Assembly: GCA_017560765.1 (NCBI GenBank)
Contig: JAFZEI010000091.1
Coordinates: forward strand, 1 to 46,732
DNA from: Clostridia bacterium
Lineage (GTDB): Bacteria > Bacillota > Clostridia > UBA1212 > UBA1255
Reading direction: 5' to 3'
Length of the DNA stretch: 46,732 bases
The notes beneath the pieces are model-generated. The model was given only the letters and a program-made list of their open reading frames with translations, had not been told where the DNA came from and did not search any database. Of the stretch, positions 1,904 to 41,224 are shown one piece after another. Both the position numbers and the translations under genes were made by a program. How positions within the stretch are numbered: position 1 is the stretch's first letter; every line of letters starts with the position of its first letter.

Positions 1904-2796
1904 GTAATATCTTTTGAAGTAATATGAGCCGTACTTTCTAAAAAACTCAATGCAGATGCGGAAAGTGTATCTGCCCAACCGATTTGGTATGCAGTTAAGG
2001 GATCTGTTTCCGTACCGCTGCTCATAATCGTATTCGGCAGAAAAATTTTTGAGGCGGCCAATGCATCTTTGTACAGATAAAAATCAACTGCGCCGTATAA
2101 ATGATAAAGTTCATGCCTAAAGGCATCTTCTTCTGAATAAATCAGCGCAAACTCAGGCCAAGTCTCCGTTTTGCCGGAGGAGGCGTATGCGCGTCCTGTT
2201 CTGTTGAGAATGAATATGACGGGAGCCTCATCCGTTGCGTACTTTTTTTCCAGAATACTGTTTATCTCTAATGCCGGTGAAATTTCCAGTTTTTCAGCAA
2301 TTTTAGCAAGCCACTGTGGGCTTTCTGCCGGTTTCCCTACTTCTCCGTCTACGGAAATATGCATGTATTCGGCCTTGATTTCCAGTTGAACATCGTATTT
2401 TTGCGCATCATGTGTTAAAAGCACTAATTCATTTTGTATAAAAATACGCTCTGATTCTATTGCTTCTGCATCCCAAACACTTATTTCGTCATCTACGAAT
2501 ACGACAGTTAAAATTACCTTTCCTGATAAATTTTGACAACATCCTTTGCCTTTATATGAAAGATAAACGTGATCTTCATAATCAGATGGAGAAGATGTTG
2601 AGAGAGGCGAAGGTGTAGTTGTGAGTATGTGTGTGGGTGTGGCTGAGGGTGAGGGAAAAACGGTAGCAGTGGGGGTGGGCTTTTCCGTGTGAGAAGCTTT
2701 AATATCATTTTTACTTTTACAGCCCCAAAAAGTAAAAACGAGAAAAACCGGGAAAATAACTAAAAAGATTTTATAAAATTTTTTAGATATTGTCAT
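1900..2796 (-). CDS. Putative metzincin-type zinc protease lipoprotein
   Basis: The 298-residue product has a lipoprotein signal (hydrophobic stretch 8-24, lipobox ending at C26) and a Pro/Thr/Ser linker (about 38-72), so it should sit on the outer face of the membrane. Residues 228-238 read HELYHLYGAVD, matching the metzincin zinc signature HExxHxxGxxD, where the third ligand is Asp as in snapalysin. A downstream IMSSG (257-261) could be the Met-turn. The protein is otherwise unfamiliar, so substrate and role are unknown. The gene begins 12 bp after the nucleosidase gene and has its own AAGGAG site, so the two are probably co-transcribed. Protease assignment is inferred from the motif and moderately sure. 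Confidence 0.7.
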   Translation of the reverse strand: MTISKKFYKIFLVIFPVFLVFTFWGCKSKNDIKASHTEKPTPTATVFPSPSATPTHILTTTPSPLSTSSPSDYEDHVYLSYKGKGCCQNLSGKVILTVVFVDDEISVWDAEAIESERIFIQNELVLLTHDAQKYDVQLEIKAEYMHISVDGEVGKPAESPQWLAKIAEKLEISPALEINSILEKKYATDEAPVIFILNRTGRAYASSGKTETWPEFALIYSEEDAFRHELYHLYGAVDFYLYKDALAASKIFLPNTIMSSGTETDPLTAYQIGWADTLSASALSFLESTAHITSKDIT

Positions 2797-24124: not shown

Positions 24125-24166
24125 TGCAAACTAATAAAGAGAGTTTTTACAAGGAGCGTGATTGGG

Positions 24167-25549
24167 ATGACAGATAAGCTTCATGAGGAGTGTGGCCTTT
24201 TTGCCATGTTTGACAATGACGGTTACGATACTGCAAGGATTACGTATGCAGGTCTTTTTGCTATGCAGCACAGAGGACAGCAAAGCGCCGGAATTGCAGT
24301 GAATAACGATAGAAAAGTTACTTTGTACAAGGATAACGGACTTGTACATGAGGTGTTTAGTGACGAGGTAATTAATTCTTTAAAAGGCAGGATGGCAATC
24401 GGCCATGTGCGCTACAGTGCAGATGGAGAACAAGACGTTCTTAATGCCCAGCCTCTTGTCAGCAGATATATTAAAGGACCATTGGCGGTGGCAACAAATG
24501 GTACACTTACCAATTACCATGAGCTTAAGCATCAGTTGGAGCAAGAAGGAGCGATTTTCCAAACAACAAACGAAACTGAGATTATAATGCACCTGCTTGC
24601 AAGGGCTCGTATGAAGACGGGACGTGTTGAGACAGGTCTTGCTGAAATCATGAAAAATCAATTGCGCGGAGCTTATGCTCTTGTAATGATGAGCCCTCAA
24701 AAGCTTATTGCGTGCCGTGACCCAAAGGGTATGAAGCCACTTTGCATGGGTAAAATTGAAAATTCTTACGTTTTTGCGTCGGAAACTTGCGCGCTTGACA
24801 CAGTTCGTGCTGAGTTTGTAAGGGAACTTGACCCGGGAGAAATTGTTATTGTAGATGTGAACGGAGTAAGAAGCATAAGGGATAATTGCCAAGATCGTAA
24901 GTGCTCAAGCATGTGCGTTTTTGAGTATCTTTATTTTGCTCGCTCGGATTCTATTATAGAGGGTATGAGTGTACATAAGGCAAGAAAGCTTACCGGTAAG
25001 ATTTTGTCGGAGACATATCCTGTTGATGCAGATATAGTTGCTGCAGTGCCTGACTCGGGAGTAGATGCTGCAATTGGATACGCAGAAGCGTCGGGCATTC
25101 CGTATGCAAAAGCACTTATGATTAACCGCTATGTGGGTAGAACATTCATACAGCCTACACAGGAACAGAGAACTACAGCTGTGAGATTAAAAATTAATGT
25201 AATCAGAGATACTGTAAAGGATAAAAAAATTGTTCTTGTTGATGACTCGATTGTGCGCGGTACAACGTGTGCGAAGCTTGTTGCAATGCTAAAAGAGGCC
25301 GGTGCAAAAGAGGTTCACATGAGAATCAGTGCGCCGCCGTTTATATGGCCTTGCTATTTCGGCACAGATATTCCGTCGAGGGAACATTTAATGGCTTGCA
25401 ATTATACCGTAGACGAGATTTGTAATATGATTGGTGCTGACTCTTTGGGCTTTATGCCTGTTGAGAGACTTCCGGAAGTAGTTCCGGATATAAATTGCGG
25501 CTATTGTGACGGATGTTTTACAGGAAAATATCCTTATGAACACGAGTAA
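24167..25549 (+). CDS. purF: Amidophosphoribosyltransferase (first step of purine synthesis)
   Basis: The product (460 residues) converts PRPP plus glutamine to 5-phosphoribosylamine. The N-terminal glutaminase begins after a short propeptide: with ATG 24167 the catalytic Cys is residue 9 (EECGLF). The PRPP-binding loop is VLVDDSIVRGTT. Cysteines at CSSMC, WPC and CGYCDGC match the Fe-S-containing Bacillus-type enzyme. The in-frame GTG at 24158 is only 1 nt from AAGGAG (24151-24156), so ATG 24167 is preferred. It follows thrS by 42 bp without a terminator, so T-box readthrough may reach it; no other pur genes are present. Confidence 0.92.
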   Translation: MTDKLHEECGLFAMFDNDGYDTARITYAGLFAMQHRGQQSAGIAVNNDRKVTLYKDNGLVHEVFSDEVINSLKGRMAIGHVRYSADGEQDVLNAQPLVSRYIKGPLAVATNGTLTNYHELKHQLEQEGAIFQTTNETEIIMHLLARARMKTGRVETGLAEIMKNQLRGAYALVMMSPQKLIACRDPKGMKPLCMGKIENSYVFASETCALDTVRAEFVRELDPGEIVIVDVNGVRSIRDNCQDRKCSSMCVFEYLYFARSDSIIEGMSVHKARKLTGKILSETYPVDADIVAAVPDSGVDAAIGYAEASGIPYAKALMINRYVGRTFIQPTQEQRTTAVRLKINVIRDTVKDKKIVLVDDSIVRGTTCAKLVAMLKEAGAKEVHMRISAPPFIWPCYFGTDIPSREHLMACNYTVDEICNMIGADSLGFMPVERLPEVVPDINCGYCDGCFTGKYPYEHE

Positions 25550-25584
25550 AAAAATATAGTAATAATTAATACAAAATAACAAAT

Positions 25585-25616
25585 AATATCCTCATCTTGA
25601 GAAAGATGGGGATATT
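25585..25616 (+). promoter_or_regulatory. 14-bp hairpin burying the gerA ribosome binding site
   Basis: The arm 25585-25598 pairs with 25603-25616 over 14 contiguous pairs (one G-U), closed by a GAGA tetraloop of GNRA type. The Shine-Dalgarno GATGGGG (25605-25611) lies wholly in the 3' arm, and the arm ends directly before ATG 25617. Five T residues follow the ATG, so it could instead act as a terminator for purF. Confidence 0.75.
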
Positions 25617-27248
25617 ATGTTTTTAGAATATATTTTTAAAAAATTGAAATACAATAATAATACGAAATGTGGAGTGCCGCAAAAACAAGAGGAGCAAACT
25701 CCGGTGCCGCCAAACATAGATAATGCAGAGCAAATGTTAAAAGAACGTTTTTGCTTCAGTAATGATTTTGTGACAAGACGTTTAAATGTGAATTATGTAG
25801 AAAATAAGAGTTGCAACGGATTAATTGCTTATATGGATGGTATGGTCAGACAGGATTTATTGTCTGAAAGTATAATTAAACCGCTTTTGCACGGCAGGCA
25901 AGAAACGTTTTTACTTTCTAACCGGTCAAAAAGTAAAAACGAGAAAAACAGTAAAGTTGATAAAATAAACAATACAATATTATCTACAGGAGAGGTTAAA
26001 AAAGAAAAAGATTTTGAAAAAGCAGTAGAGGCAATCTTAAACGGGGATTGTGTACTGTTTTTGGAAAATTCTGCAGAATGCAGTATTATAAGCTGCAAGG
26101 GGTATGAAAAAAGAACAATTGAGCAACCCTCATACGAAGTGTCTATGCGTGGGCCAAGGGAAAGCTTTAATGAGAATTTACGAACAAATACCACCTTGCT
26201 CAGACGGCGTGTTAAAAACAGCAATTTAGTTTTTGAAAACTTAGTAAAAGGGCGAAAAACTCGTACAAATCTATGCATAACATATATTAATGGTCTTGCT
26301 GAGAAAAAACTGGTAGACGAGGTAAAAAGAAGAATTAGCAAAATCAATGTTGATATGATATTGGAATCCGGCTATATAGAAGAATACGTAGAGGACAGCC
26401 CGTTCTCGATTTTTGCCACAATGGGAATTACAGAGCGCCCCGATGTATTGGCAGCAAAGCTTATGGAGGGGCGCGTAGGGATAATTATTGATGGTTCGCC
26501 TTTTGTACTCACGGTTCCTTTCTTTTTTATTGAAGCATTTCAAAATCCTGAGGATTATTACACCAGAACGATTCATTCGGGAATTATCAGAATTTTCAGA
26601 TACCTTGCATTCTTTTTGAGCATAATGGTTCCCGGTATTTATGTGGCGCTCACAAGCTTTCATCAGGAATTAATACCAACTTCTTTACTTTTTACCATTG
26701 CCGCATCAAGCGAAGGTGTGCCATTTGGCTCCTTTGCGGAGGTTTCGCTGTTTTTGCTTGTGTTCGAGCTTTTAAAAGAAGCCGGCATCCATATGCCTAA
26801 AAATATTGGTCAAACTATCAGTATTGTAGGTGGTCTTGTTATGGGAGAGGCAGCTATTCAGGCGGGACTGATAGGCGCGCCGGTAGTGATTATAATTGCT
26901 TTTACTGCAGTTTCCAGTTTTGTAGTGCCTACAATGGGTAATGAAGTGACACTGCTGCGGTGGATATTTTTGTTTTTAGGCGGCTTTTTGGGTGGCTTCG
27001 GAATTGCTGTAGGAATTATAGGGCTTACCGTTCATGTTACGGGTCTTGAATCCTTCGGATACAGCTTTGCATCTCCTTTTATGCCATGCAGGCCGGAAGA
27101 TTTAAAAGACACATTTGTAAGGGCCCCTTTATGGATGATGCGTCGCCGCCCTTACGGAATGGCGCAAGGTGACAAAGTTAGGGAAAATACACCTATTCCG
27201 CCTGACCGAGAAACGTCAAACGAAAACGGGGAGAAAAATTATGAGTAA
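25617..27248 (+). CDS. gerA: GerA-family spore germination receptor subunit A
   Basis: The 543-residue product is the A subunit of a nutrient germinant receptor in the inner spore membrane. The N-terminal soluble part (about 1-315) contains the family segments RPDVLAAKLMEGRVGIIIDGSP and FFIEAFQNPEDYY, followed by about five membrane segments (about 320-490) with LVFELLKEAGIHMP and VPTMGNEVTLLRW. The tail is hydrophilic. Gene order is A-C-B and the gene overlaps the C gene by 8 bp. A residue run rich in Lys/Asn near 100-130 suggests a flexible insert. Translation may be restrained by the hairpin over its ribosome site. The germinant cannot be predicted. Confidence 0.93.
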   Translation: MFLEYIFKKLKYNNNTKCGVPQKQEEQTPVPPNIDNAEQMLKERFCFSNDFVTRRLNVNYVENKSCNGLIAYMDGMVRQDLLSESIIKPLLHGRQETFLLSNRSKSKNEKNSKVDKINNTILSTGEVKKEKDFEKAVEAILNGDCVLFLENSAECSIISCKGYEKRTIEQPSYEVSMRGPRESFNENLRTNTTLLRRRVKNSNLVFENLVKGRKTRTNLCITYINGLAEKKLVDEVKRRISKINVDMILESGYIEEYVEDSPFSIFATMGITERPDVLAAKLMEGRVGIIIDGSPFVLTVPFFFIEAFQNPEDYYTRTIHSGIIRIFRYLAFFLSIMVPGIYVALTSFHQELIPTSLLFTIAASSEGVPFGSFAEVSLFLLVFELLKEAGIHMPKNIGQTISIVGGLVMGEAAIQAGLIGAPVVIIIAFTAVSSFVVPTMGNEVTLLRWIFLFLGGFLGGFGIAVGIIGLTVHVTGLESFGYSFASPFMPCRPEDLKDTFVRAPLWMMRRRPYGMAQGDKVRENTPIPPDRETSNENGEKNYE

Positions 27249-28485
27249 AAAAATAATTTGCATAACAACTGTAATTGTAATTATGTTTGTTAGTTTTACG
27301 GGCTGTTCTGTAAAGGGCACAAAAAGAGATCTAAGCTCGCTTGCCATTGTAATTGGCCTTGCAATAGATAAAAATGAGGGAGACAGTCAGGGATTTGAAA
27401 CTTTTGGCGACGAACAAGCAAGAATTCTCATGACAGCTCAAGTGGTGCGCAATGATTCCGTAGGACAGCAAGGAGGTTCGGGGCAAGGCGCTGATTCTGC
27501 CGGTAAAGGTGATGTGGGTAAACCATACTGGAATGTGGAGGTTGTGGGCGGTAATTTATTGGAGGCAATCAGGGCAGCGACTCATGTTACAAACAGGAGC
27601 CTCTATTTGGCTCAGAATCAAGTGGTAGTTATAAGCAGCGATATTGCAAAAGAGGGTATTGCCAAGTATTTGGACTTTTTTTTCAGAGACCACGAGACGA
27701 GATACGATGTAAGCTTAATTATTGCAGAGGGAAACGCAGGGAAAATATTGGCAACGGAGTCACATCTTGACAATTTGCCTGCGCAAGATTTGTACAAGCT
27801 GATAAACAGTCAAAAAAGGGACAGCGGCACGCCGGATTGTACGCTTTTTTCCTTTATAAGAGATTATAAGACGGAATACAAATCGGCGCTTGTTCCTTTT
27901 GTGCGGGTGATTGAGCCGAAGGAGGAACAAAGGTCTCCGTTTTTGTTTGTTGCGGGAAGCAGTATTTTTGTTGAAGATAAAATGGTAGGTATTCTTGACG
28001 AAAAGCAAACAAGAGGCGTTTTGTGGGTTTCAGACAGGGTTACTGACGGAGTTGTTGCACTTGATTTCGACGGAATAGCTGTATCTTTAGAAGTTATTAA
28101 CAGTAAGGGAAGTTTTACTGCAGAATATTCCGACGGTAAAATTAAAGTGAAAAGTAAAGTGGAGGCTAAATTAAGCTTGGGAGAGTATCAGGGGCAAGGA
28201 CAATTCGATACAGAAAAAGTCAAAATGCTGGAAAAAATGTGTGAAGAAGAGATAAAAAAAGAAATTAACGAGGGCTTTGAAAAAATCAGAGAGAAAAGTG
28301 CTGATGTTTTGGGAATTGGTAATTATTTTTACAGATTTAAGTATAAACAATGGCAAAAAATACAAGAAGATTTCCTTGAAATGTATAAAAATGCCAATAT
28401 GGAAATAGAAGTGGATGCTCAAATTATCCGTACAGGTTCGCTTTTAAAACCTATAGATGCTAATTCGGGAGGTAAAAATGAGTAA
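27241..28485 (+). CDS. gerC: Ger(x)C-family spore germination lipoprotein
   Basis: The 414-residue product has a lipoprotein signal with lipobox FTGC (C22) and the GerC pattern KRDLSSLAIVIGLAIDK, FFFRDHETRYDVSLIIAEG, and a C-terminal domain ending VDAQIIRTGSLLKP. As subunit C of the receptor it is anchored to the outer leaflet of the inner spore membrane. ATG 27241 is preferred over upstream in-frame starts because of the GGGGAGA site and the signal peptide. It overlaps both neighbours by 8 bp, so the three subunits are translationally coupled. Confidence 0.92.
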   Translation: MSKKIICITTVIVIMFVSFTGCSVKGTKRDLSSLAIVIGLAIDKNEGDSQGFETFGDEQARILMTAQVVRNDSVGQQGGSGQGADSAGKGDVGKPYWNVEVVGGNLLEAIRAATHVTNRSLYLAQNQVVVISSDIAKEGIAKYLDFFFRDHETRYDVSLIIAEGNAGKILATESHLDNLPAQDLYKLINSQKRDSGTPDCTLFSFIRDYKTEYKSALVPFVRVIEPKEEQRSPFLFVAGSSIFVEDKMVGILDEKQTRGVLWVSDRVTDGVVALDFDGIAVSLEVINSKGSFTAEYSDGKIKVKSKVEAKLSLGEYQGQGQFDTEKVKMLEKMCEEEIKKEINEGFEKIREKSADVLGIGNYFYRFKYKQWQKIQEDFLEMYKNANMEIEVDAQIIRTGSLLKPIDANSGGKNE

Positions 28486-29566
28486 AAGGCAATTTGTGTT
28501 TATAACGGCCTGCTTTGTGCAAGGTTCTTTTATGTATACGATGTATTATTATCAAATTGCAGGTAATGAATCTTGGATAACACTGCTTGCAGGTATACTT
28601 TTTGGAATTGCTGTTGCATTCATGTACGGTGCTCTGTATAAAATGCATTTTGATAAGGATAATGATAGTGCAAAAGGCCTTGTAGAAATAAATATGGCAG
28701 TATATGGGAAATCTTTTGGGAAATTACTATCTCTTTTATACGTTGGCACTTTGTTGCTGTCTTGCTCCAGAATGCTACGTGAAGCAGGACAGTTTGTGGC
28801 CGGAAATCTTTTGATGGGCATAAACTGGACGTATATTTTAGCAATTTTAGTTATTTTGTGTGGATGGACAGCATTTTACGGAGTTAAATATTTTGCATCA
28901 ATAGGTACTGCAACGTGTTTATTTATGTACATTTTTACTATTGTCCTTTTTATTTTACTTTTGCCTCACTCTAAGCTATATCACTTACTGCCTATGGGTA
29001 AGGAAGAAATTCACACGTATTTTAAGGGGATTTCTCTTTGCACCGCACTTCCGTTTTCTGAACTGGTGGCGTTTCTGATTATTGCTCCGGACGTTCGCGG
29101 CGAAAATCGCGGAAATTTAAAAAAAGAGCTTTTCTACGGAATTCTTGCCGGCTCGCCGTTTTTGCTCATTTCTATTTTGCGAGATACTTTGGTGCTTGGC
29201 CCGCTAATGGGTGATTTTTCGTATCCGGGATACGAGGTTATCAGGCTTGTGAATTATAAGGTGTTTTCAAATGTTGAAAGCCTATACGGTATAATAATAA
29301 TTTTTCTGATGTTTTTTAAAAGTGCATTGCTTTTTTACTCTGTGGCCAAGGCTTTAGTAAAAATATTAAATTGTAAGGGAAGTCCGTTATTTTACGCTTT
29401 TGTATCAGGCGTTTTGTTCTTTGTTTCACAAATAATTGCAGATTCAAATATAAAACTATCTGAGATAGTCTTGCAGAGAATACCGTATATATTATTATCT
29501 GTAAATGTTGGTTTGCCGTTGGTTACGCTTTTGATGTCGAAAATTAAAAAGATAAAAGAAAAATAA
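28478..29566 (+). CDS. gerB: GerB-family spore germination permease-like subunit
   Basis: The 362-residue product has about ten membrane segments of the APC-transporter type, matching the B subunit of GerA-type receptors, believed to form the germinant-binding or transport core. Family features include the central SELVAFLIIAPDV and the LRDTLVLGPLM segment. ATG 28478 is supported by GGGAGG (28467-28472). It ends 3 bp from the convergent loaP gene with no visible terminator between them. Confidence 0.92.
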   Translation: MSKRQFVFITACFVQGSFMYTMYYYQIAGNESWITLLAGILFGIAVAFMYGALYKMHFDKDNDSAKGLVEINMAVYGKSFGKLLSLLYVGTLLLSCSRMLREAGQFVAGNLLMGINWTYILAILVILCGWTAFYGVKYFASIGTATCLFMYIFTIVLFILLLPHSKLYHLLPMGKEEIHTYFKGISLCTALPFSELVAFLIIAPDVRGENRGNLKKELFYGILAGSPFLLISILRDTLVLGPLMGDFSYPGYEVIRLVNYKVFSNVESLYGIIIIFLMFFKSALLFYSVAKALVKILNCKGSPLFYAFVSGVLFFVSQIIADSNIKLSEIVLQRIPYILLSVNVGLPLVTLLMSKIKKIKEK

Positions 29567-40221: not shown

Positions 40222-40232
40222 ATAAAAAGATA

Positions 40233-40248
40233 GACAAATGAATTTGTC
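40233..40248. promoter_or_regulatory. 16-bp palindrome before the LamG-like lipoprotein gene
   Basis: GACAAATGAATTTGTC: 7-bp arms around GA. It lies in the 79-bp gap before the GTG start at 40301. It may be an operator or small hairpin; the promoter itself is not clear (TTGTCA 40244-40249 with TAATAC 40265-40270 is weak). Confidence 0.4.
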
Positions 40249-40300
40249 AATGATAATATATCCGTAATACTAAACTTTTAAATAAGAAAGGAATATTATC

Positions 40301-41224
40301 GTGAAAAGATTTAAAACATGTTTATTAGTTTTATTGACATTGCTTGTTGCAGCATCAATGCTGGTAAGTTGCGGACAAAAAAGTGAATCAGAAGCGACGA
40401 AGGCTCCCTCTGATTCAACAATAGCTTCATCATCGGCGCCTACAGCAACTTCTACAGCTACTTCCACGGAAAATCCCACAGAAGTACCCACAGCAGCACC
40501 TACAGAGGAGCCGACAAGGGCACCTGTAGAGGTAAATAATCCTCCCGAAGGATATAATGCAGAGGACAAAGCTCCGGCTGCCGACTTGTTGGATTTGGTA
40601 TTTGATGGCGAAACAGCAAAAGACGGCTCGGCGTCGCAGTTCGAGATTACAGCTCTTAATGACCCTGTTGTTGATAAAGACAAGACGATAAACAAAACGG
40701 TTGCAGAATTTGCAAAGGAAGACGCATCTATGTATGCGGTATATGATTTTAATTCTTCTGTACATGACAAACTTTCAGATGGCTTTACATTTGAGGTTTA
40801 TGTTATGCTCTATGACGATACAGTTTACAGCTCCATTCTCGGTTATACACAAGCGGGCGGTGTAAGCATAGATTTTGATGAGAATAGAGGCTCCATAGGA
40901 TTCGGAATACGTACTCCCGCCGGTTATGTATACATTTATGATACAGAGCGTATAGATGCGGATGAATATTATCACGTAGTCGGTGTTTATAATGGCAGTG
41001 AAATAAGTCTTTATTGCGATGGAGAACTTATAAAAACATCAGCTGCAGGCGAGCTTGTATTCCCGAGTGTAGCTAAAACATATCTTGGCATTGGCGGTGA
41101 TTTAAGCGGCAATGACCAAGGTGAAGACCAAATGTCAGGAACAATTGCCTTAGCGAGAATCTATTCTGATGCGCTAAATGCATCTCAAGTATATAATCTT
41201 TACTTAGAAGCTGTTCAAGGATAA
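40301..41224 (+). CDS. LamG/concanavalin-like lectin-domain lipoprotein
   Basis: The 307-residue lipoprotein has the lipobox MLVSC (C25), a long Ser/Thr/Pro/Glu linker (about 30-80), and a C-terminal jelly-roll of the laminin-G type (about 95-305): MYAVYDFNSSVHDKLSDGFTFEVYVML, YHVVGVYNGSEISLYCDGELI and GTIALARIYSDALNASQV, the ending typical of LamG_3. It probably binds a carbohydrate or protein at the surface. The GTG start is supported by AAGAAAGGAA, 8 nt upstream. No catalytic residues are evident. Confidence 0.82.
   Translation: MKRFKTCLLVLLTLLVAASMLVSCGQKSESEATKAPSDSTIASSSAPTATSTATSTENPTEVPTAAPTEEPTRAPVEVNNPPEGYNAEDKAPAADLLDLVFDGETAKDGSASQFEITALNDPVVDKDKTINKTVAEFAKEDASMYAVYDFNSSVHDKLSDGFTFEVYVMLYDDTVYSSILGYTQAGGVSIDFDENRGSIGFGIRTPAGYVYIYDTERIDADEYYHVVGVYNGSEISLYCDGELIKTSAAGELVFPSVAKTYLGIGGDLSGNDQGEDQMSGTIALARIYSDALNASQVYNLYLEAVQG

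Follow-up and report, generated by a model that had tools for sequence, protein, structure and literature searches.

The window, a 46,732-nucleotide stretch of Clostridia bacterium DNA that was analysed as a whole, carries on its forward strand a gene for the A subunit of a germination receptor (gerA, 25617..27248, 543 aa; PF03323, 577 bits). The gerA start codon is credible because the N-terminal residues of GerA align across five proteins of the genus. The operon continues with a gerC-like gene for a Ger(x)C protein (27169..28485, forward strand, TIGR02887 over the cut-off), whose true start is probably later than 27169, and with a gene for a gerB-like spore permease (28457..29566, forward strand, PF03845 over the cut-off). 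Upstream, the co-directional purF (24158..25549, forward strand, TIGR01134 over the cut-off) is separated from gerA by 67 nt, and a scan for terminator-like sites revealed no second forward-strand site between the purF stop codon and the hairpin described below. The gene is preceded by a co-directional unit with no other terminator-like site in between, as is expected of a hairpin that silences read-through. Within the gerA coding sequence, a separate inverted repeat of 16 pairs (CGTTTTTACTTT...AAAGTAAAAACG) was identified at 25906-25941 of the window; it scores as a terminator on the reverse strand, and the length of GerA varies at this place within the genus.

At the gerA start, a hairpin of 16 contiguous pairs (one of them G-U) was identified from the sequence and its fold (25583..25618, forward strand), with the arms ATAATATCCTCATCTT (25583-25598) and AAGATGGGGATATTAT (25603-25618) flanking a GAGA loop (25599-25602). 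The original prediction of 14 pairs around this loop at 25585-25619 was borne out as to hairpin and loop and fell short in its pair count. Folding of 71 nt around the hairpin gave -22.3 kcal/mol, compared to -7.9 +/- 2.4 kcal/mol for 200 dinucleotide shuffles (z -5.9), none of which folded as low; the hairpin is beyond chance. The GC share of the stem is low, G-C pairs making up 4 of the 16. The 3' arm contains the complete Shine-Dalgarno (SD)-like sequence GGGGA (25608..25612), as had been claimed, and the hairpin, which had been described as abutting the start codon, in fact overlaps it, with A25617 and U25618 of the AUG being paired. The partner of the SD in the 5' arm is an anti-SD sequence, CCTC (25590..25593, forward strand), which pairs with GGGG at 25608-25611. 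A T-run (25620..25624) follows the stem within codons 2-3 of gerA and was flagged by the terminator-like scan as a possible weak terminator tail.

A promoter-like sequence was found to lead into the 5' arm on the same strand, consisting of a -35-like GTAATA (25559..25564) and, 17 nt further on, a -10-like AATAATA (25582..25588). Relatives in the genus possess GTAATA or GTTATA, a spacing of 17-18 and AATAATA or CATAATA. Genes of the ssp family (PF00269 over the cut-off in nine of nine genomes) often carry GMATA-17/18-AATAWTA in these genomes, and AATAATA itself precedes several ssp genes of the genus. A weight matrix was prepared from ssp and spoVT promoters picked by eye, with gerA excluded; in the scans of G000 (the genome of the window) and G004 its -35 was aligned one base upstream (AGTAAT, spacing 18). 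The best hit within 110 nt was the -10 at the base of the 5' arm in all five genus members (8.8-10.7 bits), with no equally good match further upstream within that distance in any of the five, and hits at such scores occur at 1.2e-4 to 4.4e-4 per base in the window. Compared to the SigG consensus (GMATR - 17/18 - CATNMTA-like), the gerA -35 is imperfect (four of five positions of GMATR). As the -10 is of the type found before ssp genes, the promoter is probably SigG-type. Given a -10 at this position, the RNA is expected to begin within the hairpin, no earlier than the last base of CCTC; the predicted start lies 5-9 nt past the -10 (25593..25597, forward strand), which places the anti-SD between the two.

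The consequences for the accessibility of the SD were examined with a fold model. In an RNA reading through from upstream, the SD was predicted to be occluded in all five genus members, with a cost of opening the SD of 17.5, 19.6, 17.1, 13.0 and 16.6 kcal/mol for G000 to G004, respectively. For RNA from the gene's own promoter, modelled for starts +5 to +9, the corresponding values from +7 were 2.2, 1.8, 1.8, 1.5 and 6.8 kcal/mol, the own RNA of G004 thus still retaining an appreciable cost.

The GerA protein was searched against 58 genomes, with matches in 35 of these. Absence of the stem from relatives had been named as a result that would speak against the original prediction; the hairpin was found at the gerA ATG in all five genus members examined (G000-G004), a single extra T separating the two in G002. 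The gene upstream is purF in three of these (G000, and G001 and G002 as judged by eye from the C-terminus) and purA in the other two (G003, with NF002223 and TIGR00184 over the cut-off, and G004, by eye). The hairpin is thus not specific to purF, since it stays while the upstream gene changes. The DNA from the upstream stop codon to the gerA promoter was found to have diverged within the genus, and on this comparison the hairpin is part of gerA and not of purF.

Ten of the 16 stem pairs are invariant among the five species, two change on one side with the pair kept and four depart through unpaired cells only, so that 73 of 80 cells are paired; the four CCTC-GGGG pairs are invariant in all five. 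The compensatory changes that had been sought did not appear, there being no covariation and no double change in the stem among the five genus members. Column shuffles of the stem pair no worse than the real data, and arms this close to invariant do not alone prove RNA pairing. Loop length was found to be 4 nt in three species, 6 nt in G004 and 27 nt in G003. The long loop of G003 (L004, 1460-1486) possesses a G+C-rich inner stem of its own, with the SD-pairing stem retained. The T-run 3' of the stem comprises 4-5 T in four species and is missing in G004 (GATATTC).

Searched in 10 genomes, a covariance model of the five hairpins (R1) gave no match at E<0.01 other than these five loci, the next match standing at E>=0.11; of the 452-758 first-look candidates in each genome, 150 were scored. 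At four of the five loci the matches fell on both strands, the element being palindromic. A repeat family or mobile palindrome was set aside on this basis. A riboswitch or other known RNA family was also rejected, with no Rfam match above the cut-off at the hairpin (the best weak one reached 26.3 bits against a cut-off of 48.4); across the window, a tRNA was the sole Rfam match above the cut-off. Viral contigs searched for relatives of GerA yielded none.

Beyond the genus, a GerA match was found in 14 of the 31 genomes of the order, and the gerA leaders of four of these resemble that of the window in layout. In G009 and G006, CACCATGG is followed by the proposed -10 CATACTA, then A.GC.GTGGTG, a T-run and the ATG. 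In G018 the proposed -10 CATACTA stands between ACCGAC and a later GGTCGGT, and in G020 the proposed -10 AATTATA stands between GCTTCTT and C...GAGAGGC, each again followed by a T-run and the ATG. As far as these leaders can be compared, the plan is the same and the sequences are different. The modelled SD opening cost in the four was 11.5-15.4 kcal/mol for read-through RNA versus 0.8-2.5 kcal/mol for own RNA. By the matrix, the proposed -10 of G020 ranks second-best, and the -35 of G006 and G009 is poor. Co-directional upstream genes were recognized by eye as an APH-like kinase (G009), cysE (G018) and mgtE (G020). The plan was absent at gerA of G028, G016, G019 (two loci) and G021 (by eye only) and at the second gerA of G003, while G005 has a different hairpin that would sit in the gene's own RNA. 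In comparison with shuffles, nine of the 15 scored loci of the order (18 rows minus the G021 rows and a second G006 piece) stood at 1 of 100 or below, G005 included, and G018 stood at 6 of 100. Outside the order, two of 15 scored class-level gerA loci (G035 and G046) were at 1 of 60 or below, with a sixteenth giving no score. Among named loci this level was reached by three of 13, two (L035 and L038) being G009 and G006 again. The leaders of G035 and G046 (L025 and L030) were seen by eye to have start-flush hairpins with a SigG-like -10 (CATACTA, AATAATA) within the 5' arm, and these leaders suggest a repeated origin of the plan.

The extent of SD occlusion was surveyed over 639,619 bases of G000 (the window plus 40 further stretches). 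Among 497 sampled genes, gerA had the highest opening cost (about 17.4 kcal/mol; median 3.8). A cost of at least 14 kcal/mol was reached by three genes against 0.3 expected from shuffles, and one of at least 8 kcal/mol by 31 against 24.75 expected; SD occlusion was therefore not upheld as a rule for all genes, the excess being at the extreme only. The other two genes at 14 kcal/mol or above encode polysaccharide deacetylases, referred to here as pda-like and (by eye) PdaA-like. For the 492 genes having 110 nt upstream, occluded starts with z of at least 3.5 were found in nine of the 142 genes whose neighbour is co-directional and at least 50 nt away, and in one of 350 others (Fisher p 9e-5); with gerA and the two deacetylases removed, the former count became 6 of 139 (p 0.003). 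The excess is weak when the comparison is restricted to divergent genes (9/142 versus 1/81, p 0.07; for z of at least 3, 10/142 versus 2/81, p 0.12).

Some further starts were observed in passing. At 40230-40303 of the window, GATAATATATCC pairs with GGAATATTATC just 5' of the start of a gene that begins with GTG (307 aa; by eye its product is lipoprotein-like), with an opening cost of 9.4 kcal/mol and z 4.9. At L155 3592 (reverse strand), a TTGACA-17-TATACT promoter was noted whose -10 end, together with the next bases (ACTAAGG), is complementary to CCTTAGT immediately upstream of the ATG, the same plan, by eye, at a vegetative-type promoter. Start-proximal hairpins with the 5' arm in the spacer of a vegetative-like promoter were also seen by eye at a branched-chain aminotransferase-like gene (L163 10136, reverse strand) and at a gene with an SH3 domain (L100 835, forward strand).

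The leader of the pda-like gene reads AATAATA-AACTCC...GGAG, T-run and ATG, with small variations, in the four genus orthologs found; G004 yielded none, and the arrangement was not seen in G006 or G009. Opening its SD would cost 12.6-16.8 kcal/mol in read-through RNA versus 4.0-7.9 kcal/mol in own RNA; its protein lies under every NCBIfam cut-off listed. For the PdaA-like gene, a cost of 12.6-19.8 kcal/mol was obtained in all five genus members, and in its consensus fold 4 of 25 pairs were doubly changed, with an unfavourable net covariation term of +1.64. The matrix found no SigG-like promoter at the expected place in G000-G002, and a -10 noted by eye at the hairpin apex may be of SigE type.

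For spoIIR (TIGR02837 over the cut-off in eight of 10 genomes), each of the five genus members shows a SigF-like -10 and, no more than 2 nt beyond it, ACCT, ACT or CTCC, which pairs with the SD. Two of the 14 pairs of its consensus fold were doubly changed (covariation term +1.32, unfavourable), three of eight loci stood at 1 of 100 shuffles or below, and the modelled gain in own RNA was small (11.0 to 8.5 kcal/mol in G000, 7.7 to 4.6 in G001). For sigG, named by best match and reaching the model cut-off in none of 10 genomes, the bases past the -10 pair across the start codon in genus members as well as in G006 and G009, with three of nine loci at 1 of 100 or below.

The gene spoVT was picked before its leader was viewed, and reached its cut-off in two of 10 genomes. 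Four of 10 loci were at 1 of 100 or below (z 7.1 in G000), and in seven of 10 genomes the 5' arm is located in the spacer of the promoter and shows covariation with the SD arm, G003, G004 and G020 having been dropped from the covariation set for lack of the promoter motif. The covariation score was 0.251 against a maximum of 0.156 for slid partners, with six doubly changed cells, both values being reached in 5 of 500 shuffles, although partners slid by +1 yield more doubly changed pairs (6 versus 4). In the spoVT promoters of L208, L207 and L214 (each 2044-2110, reverse strand), the anti-SD sequences TCTCCTTG, TTTCCTTA and ATCCTTG were observed in the spacer that links GTATA to the -10, and each matches the SD arm of the same gene, species by species.

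For ssp genes, five of 14 scored loci were at 1 of 100 or below (two of 16 could not be scored). The ssp leaders of L081, L078 and L079 have a SigG-like promoter whose spacer contains a complement of the SD TGTGGTGAA, either TTCACCACA or TTCACCGCA, and an extra small stem-loop past the -10 that would lie at the mRNA 5' end. The same level was reached by one of five gpr loci, one of nine spoIVB loci and three of nine copies of spoIVA, the intended mother-cell control. As spoIVA scored in this way, the plan is not specific to the forespore, and a forespore-only rule was not upheld.

A wider reading of these leaders is offered tentatively, and we would put it at somewhat less than an even chance: that across the order many sporulation promoters carry a complement of their own SD or start codon, in the spacer between -35 and -10 or in the stretch between -10 and start, such that RNA from upstream would be dead and RNA from the own promoter would be read. 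This would amount to protein-free insulation on the scale of a regulon, covering gerA, the pdaA-like and pda-like genes, spoIIR, spoVT, sigG, some ssp and some spoIVA, with sequences that differ from gene to gene. Since gerA was the starting point and the survey itself brought up the deacetylases and spoIIR, these are not independent tests, and neither are orthologs.

For gerA itself, the hairpin probably silences mRNA that reads through from upstream, while RNA from the gene's own promoter, begun inside the stem, is translated. From the computed fold, its conservation with gerA, the promoter-like match and the energy difference, we infer a start site, a sigma factor, the occurrence of read-through and its silencing as follows. 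Polymerase reading through from purF (purA in two relatives) would produce RNA with both arms, in which the full hairpin would bury the SD together with part of the start codon, and gerA would thus remain untranslated during growth. In sporulating cells, an RNA from the gerA promoter (-35 GTAATA, -10 AATAATA, probably read with SigG) would begin at about 25593-25597, within the 5' arm. This RNA would lack most or all of the anti-SD CCTC, form at most a short weak stem and be translated. The anti-SD would be cheap for the gene, since it occupies promoter DNA that separates the -10 from the start.

Of the two options that the original prediction had held out, a block on read-through from purF with a start inside the hairpin is thus favoured by position, conservation, promoter motif and modelled SD costs. 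The other, a hairpin in gerA's own mRNA opened during sporulation by a signal such as temperature, a protein or a small molecule, is very unlikely: neither an opener nor an Rfam family at the cut-off was found, no conserved loop or sequence resembling a ligand pocket is present, and none of the five genus members has a comparably good promoter match further upstream. Moreover, an RNA carrying 16 pairs over SD and AUG should be strongly blocked, from which it follows that a working gerA mRNA should start inside the stem. In favour of this option, gerA of G005 and some spoIIR leaders would retain structure in their own RNA, and a small hairpin at the ribosome binding site (RBS) of B. subtilis sigG is described as acting in its own mRNA with a 2-4-fold effect (PMC5942855).

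It is less improbable, yet still unlikely, that the hairpin serves mainly as the intrinsic terminator of purF and overlaps the gerA start through compact packing. The stem with its five T is terminator-like in G000, no other such forward-strand site stands between the purF stop and the hairpin, and clear T-runs stand just before the ATG in G006, G009, G018, G020 and the pda-like gene. Against this, only 4 of 16 pairs are G-C, SD occlusion is kept in five of five genus members including G004 with no T-run, the same stem stands behind purA in two species, and at spoIIR and spoVT the plan occurs with no T-run of this kind. A simple purF terminator was set aside as the main role, since the stem stays with gerA as the upstream gene changes and G004 does without the T-run; as a second role, partial termination of purF RNA at the hairpin, assisted by the T-run, is possible. 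A DNA operator, with a repressor bound across the -10 and the start, would account for a near-perfect palindrome with nearly invariant arms, and SpoVT represses ger genes in B. subtilis. This reading is nonetheless highly improbable: the variation in loop length among the five species would shift the spacing of half-sites, which argues against a fixed operator, and the hairpin model found no other site at E<0.01 among the candidates scored in the 10 genomes.

Silencing of read-through would be of consequence because the developmental genes of spore formers lie tightly packed downstream of housekeeping genes. Translation of read-through RNA could bring a germination receptor, or a checkpoint protein such as SpoIIR, into growing cells, and a hairpin with its 5' arm in promoter DNA would prevent such stray expression without a regulator. 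With the conserved case of gerA and the signs elsewhere among sporulation genes, isolated examples would become a testable rule. Among the literature matches listed, which comprised titles and abstract openings with subscription papers mostly outside, no report of such hairpins at gerA, spoIIR or spoVT was found.

To our knowledge, few cases of hairpins with the 5' arm in promoter DNA have been described, namely T4 gene e, B. subtilis sigG and IS10. In the fold-back inhibition of IS10/Tn10, read-through RNA from outside folds over the transposase RBS, while RNA from the own promoter does not; it differs from gerA in belonging to a mobile element. An intrinsic terminator is similar in having a stem-loop and short T-run behind a co-directional gene, and differs in that one genus member lacks the T-run at gerA, and in that the stem persists though the upstream gene changes.

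In phage T4, the SD and/or AUG of gene e (lysozyme), soc, 49 and I-TevI are described as lying in a helix of long early transcripts, while late promoters just upstream of the RBS give transcripts without the 5' strand, which are translated well; the effect reported for e is about 100-fold (PMC3014915). The gerA leader is predicted to resemble gene e in having an RBS helix in the long RNA whose 5' strand would be missing from the short RNA. It is unlike these phage genes and their late phage promoters in that it concerns a chromosomal germination operon and a sporulation-type promoter, and is a prediction only. In B. subtilis, a large leader hairpin of sigG (spoIIIG) has been proposed to block translation of read-through from spoIIG and cannot form in transcripts from the sigG promoter (PMC5942855). 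That system differs from the one predicted here in its gene and sequence, in a stem described as 20 or more pairs, and in an extra small RBS hairpin within its own mRNA (PMC5942855).
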